From Halorubrum lacusprofundi ATCC 49239 (GTDB lineage: Archaea > Halobacteriota > Halobacteria > Halobacteriales > Haloferacaceae), in assembly GCF_000022205.1 (NCBI RefSeq), contig NC_012029.1:2418001-2482000 (forward strand): DNA of 64,000 bases, given 5' to 3'. A program made the translations under genes and the position numbers. Below are positions 10,208-62,556 of this stretch, in pieces. Numbering within the stretch: the first letter of the stretch is position 1; each line of letters begins with the position of its first letter. The notes beneath the pieces are model-generated. The model did not search any database and was not told the origin of the DNA. It saw nothing but the letters and a program-made list of their open reading frames with translations.

Positions 10208-11074
10208 TTACTCCGTGAGTGTGAGCGAGCCGAGAGTCACGAACAGAGCCTCCTCCGTTCGGACGACCTCGCTCGCCTGTGCCGGGATCGTGTTCAGCCA
10301 GAGGTCGAACCCCGGATCGGGTTCGACCGAGCGGCCGTCGGCAACGGCCGCCCGAATGCCGTCGGGCGAAAGCCCGAGCATCTCCGGAAGCCCTCGTTCG
10401 GGCGAGCCGAAGGCGACGGTGTAGCCGCCGGCCTTCCGCGCGTCCGAGACGATGTCGCCGAGCCGCGAGACGGAGAGTTCCTCTCCGTGTCGCGACGTCG
10501 CGACGGCCAAGCCGTCGCCGGCGAGCGCTTCCGACAGGTCCGCTTCCACGACCTGGAAACCCTCCTCGGGCTTCCCGGTGATGCGGGCGCGGACCGGTTC
10601 TCTCGAAGAGACCCTGATGGTGACGCGCTCCCCCTGCTCGACCTCCATTCCGGAGGGGACGAGCAGGGAGATCGGGTGTTCCCGCAGCGGGGAATTGACC
10701 CGGACGCGGCCTTCAGGTCCGACCTCGGTCACGAGTCCCTGTGTTTTCGACTCTTCCCCGCTAGGGGTCGAGCCGGTCCGCCACGGCACGCGGAGCGGCG
10801 GGAGCACACCGACGTACCGGAGTTCGTCGCGCTCCCCCCAGAGATCCTTCCGGAGCTCCGGCGGGGTCGCAGCGTACCCCAGTACGGTTCGGACGTACTC
10901 ACCGCCCCGTCGCCGCTCGCCTTCCCTGTCGGGGAAGACGACCAGTCGATCCGCCCGGAACACCGCCGCCGCACGGGCGACGTAGCCGAGTTTGCGAGTC
11001 GCCTCGCGAGCATCTTCGGCCTCCCGGACGACCGAAGAGGGAACGCAGATCGTGAGTCCATCTTCGGTACGCAT
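10208..11074 (-). CDS. SPOUT-class RNA methyltransferase-like protein, operon leader
   Basis: A 288-residue protein with the conserved N-terminal core REATRKLGYVARAAAVFRAD, a central OB-like segment (RVRVNSPLREHPISLLVPSG) and a C-terminal SPOUT-type knot signature, TVAFGSPERGLPEMLGL. Families of this type are predicted RNA uridine methyltransferases. The ATG at 11074 is preferred over 11110, since the likely TATA box at 11112-11119 puts the transcript start near 11090. Its location directly before L3 is conserved in haloarchaea as far as I recall, which suggests an rRNA-related job. Substrate is not known from sequence. Confidence 0.8.
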   Translation of the reverse strand: MRTEDGLTICVPSSVVREAEDAREATRKLGYVARAAAVFRADRLVVFPDREGERRRGGEYVRTVLGYAATPPELRKDLWGERDELRYVGVLPPLRVPWRTGSTPSGEESKTQGLVTEVGPEGRVRVNSPLREHPISLLVPSGMEVEQGERVTIRVSSREPVRARITGKPEEGFQVVEADLSEALAGDGLAVATSRHGEELSVSRLGDIVSDARKAGGYTVAFGSPERGLPEMLGLSPDGIRAAVADGRSVEPDPGFDLWLNTIPAQASEVVRTEEALFVTLGSLTLTE

Positions 11075-22446: not shown

Positions 22447-22551
22447 GCAAGGGCGTTTGCGAGTCACCGACTTATAAGCGATCAAGTACTCGGGAGCGAG
22501 CGCTTCCACAGACGCAGCCGGTGTTTTATGAGAAGGAGACCGCGGATCGAC

Positions 22552-22700
22552 GGCGGCTACCTCCAAAGCCCGCACCGCGACCGCACCTCAGGCCTCCCCA
22601 GCCTCGGCGGACGGGTCAGCGCGGCGCCGCCCGCGCTGACCCGCCGCCTCCCTCGCGGGCCCCTCGCGGCCGCCAGAGGCGGCCGCTCGGAGGCGCGCCA
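22552..22700 (+). ncRNA. Putative structured RNA element, copy C (short form)
   Basis: Non-coding element in a ~315-base gap. A TATA-like TTTTATG near 22527 is 32 bases before box 1 (ACCTCCAAAGCCC, 22559). Unlike the copies at 29.5 and 62.1 kb it goes straight from box 1 to box 3 (CCTCCCCAGCCTCG, 22593-22606). Box 3 is followed by a hairpin with a perfect 12-base inner stem (22612-22623 with 22632-22643), box 4 (CTCCCTCG, 22648), a perfect 9-base terminal hairpin (22666-22686) and the shared end GGCGCGCCA (22692-22700). Transcription is not proven. Confidence 0.65.
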
Positions 22701-22760: not shown

Positions 22761-24077
22761 TCAGTCCGCCGTCGCCGCGGCCGCGGCGTCCTCGCCCGCG
22801 CCGAGCGTCTCCTCGACCTGCGTCACGACAGTCACGAGTGCGACGACGGCGAGCGCGGCGCCGACCGCGAAGGGCACGACGAAGCCGAAGCCGACGAGCC
22901 AGCCGGACGCGAGCGGCCCGACCGCGACGCCGAAGCCGAACCCCATCGTGAGCACCGACAGCGTCGTGCCGGACTCGCCCTCCCGCGCGAGGTCGCCCGC
23001 GAGCGCCAGCGACGGCGCGAACACGCACGCGACGGCGACCCCCTGCGCCAGCCGGACGAGCGTCATCACCAGCGGGTCGGTGACGATTCCCTGCAGGAGC
23101 GTCGTGGGGGCGAGCAGCACGAACCCGGCCAGCAGAAAGGGCCGGCGCCCGATCCGGTCGCTGGCCTGCCCGACGGGCACCTGAAACAGGACGTTCGCGA
23201 TGGTGACCGCCGCGAACTGGAGGCCGAACCACACCGGCGGCTGGTCGAGTCGGGCGTTCACCTGCGTCTGGAGCGTCGCGTACAGCGCGATACAGATCCC
23301 CATCGCGACCGTCGCCAAGCCGAGCGCGAACACCGGGTCGAGCAGGCGGCCCTCACCGCGGACCCGGATCGAGAGGTCGTCGCTCGCCTCGCTCGACTTG
23401 GCGGCGTCGCGCACGAGGAGGAAGACGAGGGCGAAGCTGAGATACGCGCCGGCGCAGGCGGCCGCGAACGCGGCGTCGAACCCGTCGAGGACCGGGAGCC
23501 CGATCGCGGAGAGGTCGTACGGGCCGCGCTCGACGACGACGCCGGCGAGGACCGGACCGAAGCCGAAACCGATCAGCCGGAACGTGTTGTACACGCCGAA
23601 GTTCCCGCCGCGGTCGGCGTCGCTCGCGGCGTACTCGTTGACCAGCGCGACCGTCGCCGGGATGATGAGCGCCGCGCCGAATCCCTGGGCGGCGCGGAGC
23701 GCGATCAGCTGCCAGTAGGCGTCCGCGATCATGTAGAGCCCGCTGGCGGTTCCCAAAAGCAGGATTCCGGCCAACACGAAGGGCCGGCGCACGCCCATCC
23801 GGTCCGAGAGCCGACCCGTCAGGGGCTGTGAGAAGCTGTTGAGAAAGCCGAACAGCGAGAGTACGACCCCGATGAGCAGCGGCTCGGTTAGGGTCACCGA
23901 CGCCGCGCCGACCCCGACCGCTGTTCCGAGAAGCGACTCAATATCGATCAGGTCGCTCGCGATATACAGCGGCAGGACGACGATGAGAAAGGAGTTGCCG
24001 GCGGCGCCGACCATCCGGGCGAGCGCGAGCACGATCACCCGGCGATCGGTGTCGGCGACGCCCGAGAGCAGTCCCAT
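22761..24077 (-). CDS. MFS transporter
   Basis: A major-facilitator permease of 438 residues from the ATG at 24077. Twelve hydrophobic segments are visible. The MFS loop motif is QPLTGRLSDRMGVRRPFVLAG after the second helix and VGQASDRIGRRPFLLAG in the second half. This layout suits a multidrug or small-solute exporter, but the substrate cannot be told. A TATA-like CGCCTTTG lies ~27 bases upstream of 24077, which argues against the earlier ATG at 24104. A repeat-element copy lies just past its end. Confidence 0.85.
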   Translation of the reverse strand: MGLLSGVADTDRRVIVLALARMVGAAGNSFLIVVLPLYIASDLIDIESLLGTAVGVGAASVTLTEPLLIGVVLSLFGFLNSFSQPLTGRLSDRMGVRRPFVLAGILLLGTASGLYMIADAYWQLIALRAAQGFGAALIIPATVALVNEYAASDADRGGNFGVYNTFRLIGFGFGPVLAGVVVERGPYDLSAIGLPVLDGFDAAFAAACAGAYLSFALVFLLVRDAAKSSEASDDLSIRVRGEGRLLDPVFALGLATVAMGICIALYATLQTQVNARLDQPPVWFGLQFAAVTIANVLFQVPVGQASDRIGRRPFLLAGFVLLAPTTLLQGIVTDPLVMTLVRLAQGVAVACVFAPSLALAGDLAREGESGTTLSVLTMGFGFGVAVGPLASGWLVGFGFVVPFAVGAALAVVALVTVVTQVEETLGAGEDAAAAATAD

Positions 24078-56240: not shown

Positions 56241-56290
56241 GTTTATAAGTGATAATTGCAGATCGGCGGTGACCACCTCCAAAGCCGCAG
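56241..56290 (+). ncRNA. Short element copy D: TATA plus box 1 only
   Basis: A TATA-like GTTTATAAGT (56241-56250) is 30 bases before box 1 (ACCTCCAAAGCCGCAG, 56275-56290), with GATCGGCGG just before it, as in the long copies. No boxes 2-4 follow. A second TATA-like AGTTATAAGTGAT and a third TATTTATCC lie between here and the AlaX-like gene. May be a truncated copy or a promoter module. Confidence 0.5.
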
Positions 56291-61005: not shown

Positions 61006-61812
61006 ATGACCACGACGCGGGGACTCCGGGATAGCGACGAGCCGATCACGATGCTGACCGCCTACGACGCCCCGACAGCGGCGGTCGTCGACGAGGCCGG
61101 GATCGACATCGTCCTCGTCGGCGACAGCATGGGCAACGCCGCCTTGGGCTACGACTCGACGCTACCCGTAACGTTCGAGGAGGTCGCGAGCCGGACCGCG
61201 GCGGTCGCCCGCGCGACCGAGGACGCGCTGGTCGTCGCCGACATGCCCTTCCTCTCGTTCGGCGTCGACGAGGCGGAGTCGGTGCGCAACGCGGGGCGAC
61301 TCTTAAAGGAAGCCGACGCCGACGCGGTGAAGATCGAGAGCGGTCCGCACACCGTCGAGATGACGCGGCGGATGACCGACATCGGGATCCCGGTGATGGC
61401 GCATCTCGGGCTGACGCCCCAACACGTCAACCGACTCGGCGGGTACACCCGACAGGGAACCGATCAGGCCGCCGCCGAGGAGATCATCGACCTCGCCGGC
61501 GAGCACGTCGAGGCCGGCGCGTTCGCGCTCGTGTTGGAGCACGTCCCCGCGAACCTCGCGGGCGCGGTGACGGAGGCGCTGGAGATTCCGACGATCGGTA
61601 TCGGCGCCGGCTCGGACTGTGACGGACAGGTGCTCGTGATCAACGACGTCGTCGGTCTGGGGGAGTGGTCGCCACCCTTTGCCCGGCAGTTCGGCGACGT
61701 GCGCGGCGAGATGCTCGACGCCGTCGAGGCGTACAAGGAGGCGGTGACGGGCGGCGAGTTCCCGGCCGAGGAACACTCGCACGTCGAGGAGGACCTCGAC
61801 GACCTGTACTGA
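61006..61812 (+). CDS. panB: 3-methyl-2-oxobutanoate hydroxymethyltransferase
   Basis: First enzyme of pantothenate (hence CoA) synthesis. 268 residues with PanB motifs: LTAYDAPTAAVVDEAGIDIV, VGDSMGNAALGYDSTLPVT (metal site), GIPVMAHLGLTPQHVNRLGG and IGIGAGSDCDGQVLVINDVV. TATA-like CATTTTAACC is ~30 bases before the ATG. Confidence 0.95.
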   Translation: MTTTRGLRDSDEPITMLTAYDAPTAAVVDEAGIDIVLVGDSMGNAALGYDSTLPVTFEEVASRTAAVARATEDALVVADMPFLSFGVDEAESVRNAGRLLKEADADAVKIESGPHTVEMTRRMTDIGIPVMAHLGLTPQHVNRLGGYTRQGTDQAAAEEIIDLAGEHVEAGAFALVLEHVPANLAGAVTEALEIPTIGIGAGSDCDGQVLVINDVVGLGEWSPPFARQFGDVRGEMLDAVEAYKEAVTGGEFPAEEHSHVEEDLDDLY

Positions 61813-62075
61813 TAGGGATTCTCGTCGAAATTCATAGCTTCGAGACGACCGGCGCCGCTCAAACGCTTGGCAGGGGACGCGTTCCGGATCGATCCGGTCA
61901 GTACGGACACGGCGACGATCGATGCCGGGAGTGAATCTCGCACGGTGGTAGAGCGGTTGTTTATACGTGATCGAGTGGTGTTGCTGTCGGATGTTTATAC
62001 GTGATCGACGGCTCTGGGGTGACGGCCTCCAAAGCCCCAGCCGCTCGCTTATAAATAGCTGACCGGAGATCGACG

Positions 62076-62320
62076 GCGAGGACCTCCAAAGCCCCAGCCG
62101 TGAGGCGTCCAGACACTCGCTGCGCTCCTCGTCACTCGTTCGACTCGTTCCTGCGGTGCTTGCGTCGTCTCTGGGCGCCTCACGGTTGCCCCTTTGAGTC
62201 CCGCCCCGCACAGCGACCGCAGCCTCACGCCTCCCCAGCCTCGTCGCTGGCGGCGATCGCCGCCAGCGACTCCCTCGCGCGTGCTACTCGGCCGCGAGGC
62301 GGCCTCGCAGGCACGCGCCA
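62076..62320 (+). ncRNA. Putative structured RNA element, copy B (long form)
   Basis: A TATA-like GCTTATAAAT (62047-62056) is 30 bases before box 1 (62082-62097). Then a 16-base stem (62098-62113 with 62170-62185, one wobble pair), a 56-base loop resembling copy A's, box 2 (62189-62203), box 3 (62230-62243), a perfect 28-base palindrome (62243-62270), box 4 (62268-62277), an 8-base outer plus 6-base inner terminal hairpin (62277-62318) and the end GGCACGCGCCA (62310-62320). A second TATA/box 1 unit lies upstream (TATA ~61996, box ~62025). The rest of 61813-62556 holds no supported gene. Confidence 0.7.
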
Positions 62321-62556
62321 ACCGCATTCATTTATAAATGGCCGTCGCTCAACCTCTCGTTTAAATATGCTCTCGTCGCCACCGATCTGCAATACCCACT
62401 CCCGTCATCGATCAGAGAACACGCTCGGTGGCCGACCGCTTCGAACGAGAATCCGCTCGAAGAATCGGATTCCAACGGCACTACCGAGCCGGAGCTAGCG
62501 CCGAAACCGCCACACCCGGCGTGGGGTATATACGCTCCAACGGCCTACGTGAATAC

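Follow-up and report, generated by a model that had tools for sequence, protein, structure and literature searches.

Dispersed hairpin repeats of Halorubrum lacusprofundi and other haloarchaea, probably spread as MITE-borne mobile DNA

The element in the window and in other genomes

The window, a stretch of 64,000 nucleotides of the Halorubrum lacusprofundi ATCC 49239 genome (NC_012029.1, positions 2,418,001 to 2,482,000), carries three copies of one element, near 62, 29.5 and 22.6 kb (Table 1). The order common to the 54 copies of this genome is a TATA-like box, box 1, a variable stem-loop, box 2 and a short linker in the first half, and box 3, a variable palindrome, box 4, a second hairpin, the end box and a further TATA-like box in the second half, with parts missing from some copies (box 2 from that at 22.6 kb). 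The TATA-like box and box 1 are a portion of a 57-base unit that is repeated in tandem in some copies, the 62 kb copy among them, and TWTAWA lies within 20 bases of the end box in 27 of 45 copies. Short palindromic modules (e.g. CAGCCGGCGGCAAAGCCGCCGGCGAC) were seen by eye within the hairpins or in place of the middle part in L010, L022, L027, L030, L045, L173 and L175, as if small hairpins accumulate.

Table 1. Features of the 62 kb copy and its relatives, in window coordinates
Feature	Position	Strand	Basis or remark
MITE 'B' end remnant (GGTCAGTACGGACACGGCGAC)	61896..61916	+	Outside the cassette; B end with 4 mismatches in L110 (the 62 kb locus)
Cassette left inner inverted repeat, imperfect	61917..61948	+	
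TATA-like / box-1 module region	61960..62056	+	TATA-like at 61960, 61994 and 62049; sequence and module consensus
Box 1, first copy	62026..62040	+	Exact
Domain 1	62083..62203	+	Box 1 (62083-62097), variable stem-loop, box 2 (62189-62203); pairing analyses
Domain 2	62230..62320	+	Box 3 (62230-62243), palindrome A (62244-62269), box 4, hairpin B, end box (62310-62320)
Downstream TATA-like motif	62331..62338	+	Sequence
Cassette right inner inverted repeat	62379..62413	-	Match at C2:2480387-2480409 (window 62387-62409), 2 mismatches
MITE 'A' end, degenerate, tentative	62414..62437	-	By eye; not called by the automatic end test
Second copy, domains 1 and 2	29476..29815	-	Downstream of the RNase P RNA (30035-30394, -)
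Third copy	22560..22700	+	Box-1 fragment and domain 2, without box 2; orthologous sites read

Pattern matching in the window and the genome confirmed the boxes where the first-pass annotation had placed them. Exact matches were found for box 1 at 62083-62097(+), 62026-62040(+) and 29801-29815(-), for box 2 at 62189-62203(+) and 29693-29707(-), for box 3 at 62230(+), 29605(-) and 22593(+), and for the end box at 62310-62320(+), with a one-mismatch end box at 29476-29486(-). Box 1 was also matched at 22560-22574(+) with three mismatches and at 56276 with one, where no element was seen around it. When up to three mismatches were allowed, the five box 1 matches in the window were reached by 1 of 100 window shuffles and the 32 box 3 matches by none of 100; box 2 (2 matches, shuffle mean 2.5) and the end box (8 matches, shuffle mean 12.8) were not above chance at the loose setting. 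The observation therefore stands on the exact copies and on the genome-wide count of box 3, 54 exact copies vs 2 of the reversed pattern. A simple codon-usage caller made for this analysis called no gene over any of the 54 copies, and no Rfam 15 covariance model reached its gathering score on the 62 kb copy, the only two matches being far below theirs, which agrees with the earlier statements that the copies hold no protein frame and match no known RNA family. A tRNA-like end suggested by GCGCGCCA was dropped because no tRNA is present there.

The genome has 3,692,576 bases on three replicons, of which C2 is the largest (2,735,295 bases, 74% of the genome). All 54 exact copies of box 3 lie on C2, a distribution with a random chance of about 1e-7 by arithmetic; with up to one mismatch allowed there are 80 places vs 10 for the reversed pattern, and all 80 listed places are again on C2. 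Searching the boxes across haloarchaeal genomes, the check proposed with the first annotation, revealed copies well beyond this genome. Every one of the 52 genus genomes has box 3, with between 7 and 176 copies (0 to 2 for the reversed control), as have 74 of 292 genomes of the haloarchaeal class; high counts outside Halorubrum are limited to a few genera (for instance G178, 76; G225, 90; G196, 14; G206, 13). Box 2 in a relaxed form (GCCCCTTTSAGTCCCRCC) was found in 182 of the 292 haloarchaeal genomes with a reversed control of 0, and domain 1 is widespread in haloarchaea. When a collection with one genome per species was scanned, 78 of the 80 matches listed were haloarchaeal, and the two others (Peptococcaceae and a Bacteroidales MAG) had no box 1 in the 120 bases examined. 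Distant genera have the order GAAAGCCCC, a variable stem and GCCCCTTTCAGTCCCACC, with some copies arranged as close inverted pairs. No element match was obtained in the phage collection at E 0.01, and at E 10 there were only chance-level matches, mostly to bacteriophages. Ten records of the plasmid collection had partial matches; one of them is a Halorubrum salinarum plasmid, so the element is not restricted to chromosomes in every species.

Some further arrangements were noted among these loci. L312, L328, L329 and L332-L334 hold domain 1 as close convergent inverted pairs of similar spacing. In L434-L444, from a genome of another family, several copies have, by eye, a further box-1 module before domain 1 and short tandem modules of about 25 bases after it.

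Orthologous sites, invertible cassette and transposon ends

Three orthologous places were examined in the 30 best loci of the 52, 51 and 52 genomes with a match. The site after the RNase P RNA is occupied in 24 of the 30 loci, 12 in each orientation; for three of the 24 a single box is the evidence, and one of these three lies at a contig end. The site that follows the gene at 61006 is occupied in 11 loci, with one copy inverted, and that next to the gene at 22764 in 7, an eighth locus having a weak box 1 by itself. All three sites are thus occupied in some genomes and empty in others, two of them in both orientations, and some seem by eye to hold decayed remnants.

The fullest Halorubrum copies contain a cassette of about 440 bases with an imperfect inverted repeat on either side, and inner repeats of this kind are carried by a subset of copies. 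The inner repeat pattern (GATMGCGGGAGTGRGTRTTGCAG) was found in 24 of the 52 genus genomes (control 0), and 22 of 29 loci had an inverted partner, with up to 6 mismatches allowed, so that a stretch of 244-557 bases with one or more boxes lies between the two repeats; three of the seven unpaired loci are near contig ends. Comparison of the interval after the 61006 gene between G014 and G036 revealed an inversion: the outer sides align plus/plus (1-108, 404-449 and 475-620) and the interior (87-432, in two pieces) aligns minus, plus pieces overlapping the interior only at the inverted repeats. The same picture was obtained with G000 and G036, where the left flank is weak (43 bases, E 0.002) with short plus/plus matches of 28 and 36 bases. 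The segment between the inner repeats is therefore inverted at one site between species. To the eye, palindrome A at the 22764 site looks in G000 and G018 like one palindrome with its centre reversed. Invertible DNA switches are segments bounded by inverted repeats, and the present element is like them in having inverted repeats around a segment seen in both orientations at one fixed locus; unlike them, the inversion here was seen between species rather than within a culture, and the copies number in the dozens.

Outer conserved ends, A or B, were recognised in 23 of 187 distinct copies vs 0 of 187 in the control, a set which includes 29 loci fetched by the inner repeat and some same-site copies and hence gives no genome-wide rate. 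The core occurs in both orientations relative to these ends (15 copies with A on the left, 7 with B on the left and one with A at either side). Judged by eye, A and B form the opposite ends of MITE-like elements whose terminal repeat is GGCTCTGTTGARATCC. The genome contains 41 occurrences of this repeat (control 0), of which C1 and C3 hold 33, and in L419 the repeat flanks (as GGCTTTGTTGAAATCC at one end) a 273-aa transposase gene of the IS5 family (NF033579, 5.1e-66; PF01609, 9.1e-19), which rules out our IS6-like candidate assignment of the terminal repeat. It also ends a 462-base MITE without boxes inside (L425), which has a perfect 8-base duplication; the same MITE (L422/L425) shows by eye the kind of 'B' end found at 62 kb. 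Eight bases is the target duplication length for the IS5-type group and also the length seen in L425. A perfect 8-base duplication was found in 1 of 8 distinct end pairs of the genome, the rest matching at 6, 3, 3, 3, 2, 2 and 1 of 8 positions.

Three box-elements with both ends were found in other Halorubrum genomes (L399, with 0 and 0 mismatches in its ends, L397 and L401). Their lengths, in order of size, are 588, 589 and 678 bases; they hold no transposase, and their 8-base flanks match at 7, 6 and 6 of 8 positions (6 for L401). The element thus shares terminal repeats with a transposase-coding element as IS5-type MITEs do, yet ends do not bound every copy, and copies without recognised ends are taken as eroded or of other origin. 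The first-pass annotation had named a known insertion sequence end as the finding that would speak against an RNA family; the fullest form, with transposon ends and its interior in both orientations, comes close to that. In L433 (1500-2690), two IS5-type ends 1190 bases apart surround a 236-aa ORF, possibly a transposon-carried gene, whose product we take to resemble universal stress protein.

Stem pairing, folded strand and gene context

The stems of both domains pair far better than expected from their arms. In the first 8 pairs of 98 distinct domain 1 helices, 95.5% are Watson-Crick vs 52% with random right arms (maximum 58%), and in 58 helices of palindrome A 95.3% vs 64% with random arms; only helices long enough were kept, which raises the observed pairing, and the point is the gap to shuffles of the same arms. 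The named loci gave 95.0% vs 48.5% when shuffled (65 arms), 17 of 85 box-2 sites without such a helix being set aside. The stems covary, their sequence changing while pairing is kept. The base before AAAG of box 1 and that after CTTT of box 2 are C/G in 36 copies and G/C in 31, with one exception, and G/C in 31 of 32 copies of the non-Halorubrum subset; this swap between Halorubrum and the rest is a compensatory exchange, which a single event could explain.

In a strand that folds, G.T (or G.U) mismatches are better tolerated than A.C. Three helices gave A.C vs G.T counts of 31 v 15, 15 v 6 and 14 v 5 (nominal p values of 0.03, 0.08 and 0.06; total 60 v 26) for the C-rich strand, which the first-pass annotation had taken as transcribed; the counts on this strand were 26 v 5 in the named loci (p 0.0002), 11 v 1 in their non-Halorubrum subset (p 0.006) and 7 v 3, not significant, in further class loci, all p-values being too small because the copies are partly related. 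A laxer helix rule left the direction unchanged (33 v 19 and 14 v 6). This excess of A.C over G.T makes the opposite, G-rich strand the more likely folded one, be it RNA or single-stranded DNA. The strands are not told apart by folding energy, because the 62 kb copy folds better than shuffles on the + strand (z -5.2) and likewise on the - strand (z -4.0). A low G.U count was not kept as proof that folding occurs at the DNA level, since an RNase P sequence from the genus likewise has only 2 G.U in 64 standard pairs.

These data could be explained by a folded RNA or RNA-processing signal on the G-rich strand, made from read-through transcripts or from the far end. The A.C excess would be G.U on that strand, the C-G to G-C exchange between boxes 1 and 2 and the folding of the - strand would fit, and so would the gene on the box-5 side, which ends towards the element in 38 of the 54 own copies. 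However, a folded single DNA strand would give the same asymmetry, one of the three asymmetry sets (7 v 3) is not significant, and no promoter shared among the genera came to light on that strand; we regard such an RNA as unlikely.

Box conservation and the gene order around the copies were compared as well. At the RNase P loci, the 68 box columns are 93.7% pairwise identical vs 62.8% in the 495 other columns, in an alignment of 8 of the 12 same-orientation loci (L080, L085, L091 and L092, incomplete or divergent, were omitted); the former value is biased upward as the loci were found via the boxes, and concerted evolution among copies could contribute. The palindromes at these loci differ in sequence and remain palindromic. 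The 54 own copies lie between convergent genes in 25 cases, same-direction genes in 24 and divergent genes in 4, with one unresolved neighbour, vs 8 convergent (every one below 100 bases), 36 same-direction and 10 divergent among 54 intergenic regions of the window. This bias, together with the occupied site after the RNase P RNA, would fit a MITE-derived bidirectional 3'-end boundary between genes, terminator-like or insulating. But domain 1 shows no convergent bias in other genera (4 of 34 places convergent, 8 divergent) or in another family (5 of 20 and 6 of 20), for which reason a 3'-end function remains only a rival; many orthologous sites lack the element, and purging of copies that landed in promoters would yield the same pattern. 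A boundary function seems rather improbable to us.

The first-pass annotation had also seen a TATA-like box before box 1 in every copy, and this generality failed. Among the 51 own copies in which box 1 was found, strict TWTAWA starts 28-38 bases before it in 29, vs 0 to 14 copies in other non-overlapping 11-base windows, and the 22.6 kb copy has TTTTATGAG at that place. The TATA-like box precedes box 1 in 14 of 37 copies of other named Halorubrum records, and it was at its place in 0 of 34 named non-Halorubrum copies and 0 of 48 further class loci (82 of 82 copies without it, nearly all from other genera). What had been described as a dispersed promoter-bearing structured RNA family is thus dispersed, structured and non-coding, has no real Rfam match, and occurs in many genomes with covarying stems, but 'promoter-bearing' does not hold as a property of the family; TATA-driven RNA may come from some Halorubrum copies without being shared by the wider family. 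In the 22.6 kb copy, the outermost TATA-like motif (window 22449-22475) coincides by eye with the promoter-like TATA of the neighbour gene in species without the element.

The remaining alternative is a set of small RNA genes with TATA promoters of their own, read from the C-rich strand. It would agree with the placement of TATA in the own copies, the folding of the 62 kb copy on the + strand, the conserved boxes and the strong transcription reported for a PATE, a different non-coding mobile element of the same host (as described in the accessible part of PMC10544981), which makes transcripts from mobile repeats plausible. We consider it improbable, given the 82 copies without the box, the A.C excess on that strand (60 v 26 over three helices; 26 v 5) and presence/absence and inversion at orthologous sites.

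Interpretation and relation to known systems

On balance, we favour the reading that the element is dispersed mobile-type DNA, MITE-borne REP-like hairpin repeats rather than a set of RNA genes. Its fullest Halorubrum copies have the terminal repeat of an IS5-family transposon at both ends and the cassette in both orientations, and its core consists of two hairpin domains whose boxes are conserved and whose stems change in sequence yet keep pairing. The reading is based on copy number with controls, presence/absence at three sites and both orientations at two; on the paired inner repeats (22 of 29), the A/B ends (23 of 187 vs 0 of 187) and the inversion at one locus; on the terminal repeat common to the IS5-family transposase element and the 462-base MITE with its 8-base duplication; and on the near-matching flanks of the box-elements (7, 6 and 6 of 8), the strand asymmetry and the constraint on the boxes. 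An IS5-type transposase would spread the MITE in trans, and the cassette would flip through recombination between its inverted repeats. A protein may recognise the hairpins in a REP-like manner, with the G-rich strand as the folded one that acts. In most copies the transposon ends would have disappeared, with the boxes remaining constrained.

Several results speak against mobile DNA. Ends were recognised in no more than 23 of 187 copies, and loci with inner repeats are over-represented among these 187; the own box-3 copies are all on C2, but 33 of the 41 terminal repeats are on C1 and C3; and only one of the 8 distinct end pairs has a perfect 8-base duplication. Other families have domain 1 but lack the TATA module and, among the loci read, show no evident transposon ends; the boxes are conserved at an orthologous site, which is unexpected for a dead, purely selfish repeat, and the inversion was seen at one locus only, between species.

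The available parts of the literature describe comparable elements. Haloquadratum walsbyi has MITEs, PATEs and SMRs, as well as 'SwitchRepeats', in which the same element has opposite orientation at one position (PMC3119063, as far as its accessible text goes). Like these MITEs, PATEs and SMRs, the present element is non-coding, without transposase and in many copies, and like haloarchaeal MITEs it has terminal repeats in common with a transposon (PMC3119063). It differs from the latter, as judged by description, in its inner inverted-repeat cassette and in a hairpin core that is class-wide and occurs also without ends, and from PATEs, described there as lacking terminal inverted repeats, in having two nested inverted-repeat sets. 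REPs are described in the accessible part of PMC3733652 as extragenic palindromes of 20-40 bases that carry a conserved unpaired motif at one of their ends, frequently form closely spaced opposite pairs and lie mostly between unidirectional or convergent genes. Domain 1 resembles REP/BIME in its close opposite pairs, and the own-genome copies in their placement between genes; unlike REPs, domain 1 is longer (110-130 bases in most measured copies) and its stem sequence is not conserved. The Y1 transposase (PF01797) was missing in three (G001, G071 and G183) of 12 genomes chosen as repeat-rich, for which reason membership of the RAYT-mobilised REPs is not claimed; it was present in 7 of 8 repeat-poor genomes. 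No description of this element or of a recognition system for it was found among the open-access papers searched; unassigned small RNAs are reported in PMC7002113.

More tentatively, and as a possibility that we rate below an even chance, domain 1 could be an unrecognised haloarchaeal hairpin site or RNA, built on one strand from a short outer helix, an internal loop that is symmetric and G-rich, and a stem whose sequence is free to change, which is selected in many haloarchaea, read by a dedicated protein and, in Halorubrum, captured by an invertible transposon cassette to give dozens of flippable hairpin cassettes per genome. Were domain 1 such a functional hairpin, many haloarchaea would share a DNA or RNA recognition system. 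The nested architecture clearly combines conserved hairpins and an invertible cassette with the ends of a transposon, and for annotation one element explains dozens of intergenic regions per Halorubrum genome. Strong covariation alone should not count as proof of RNA genes.

Two structured RNAs of the window were noted besides. The RNase P RNA (30035-30394, -) is 360 bases long with a GC-rich insertion, matches in the genus spanning about 310 to 420 bases, and positions 10614-10716 (-) match the L4-Archaeoglobi ribosomal leader family at 74.4 bits vs a cut-off of 34.5.
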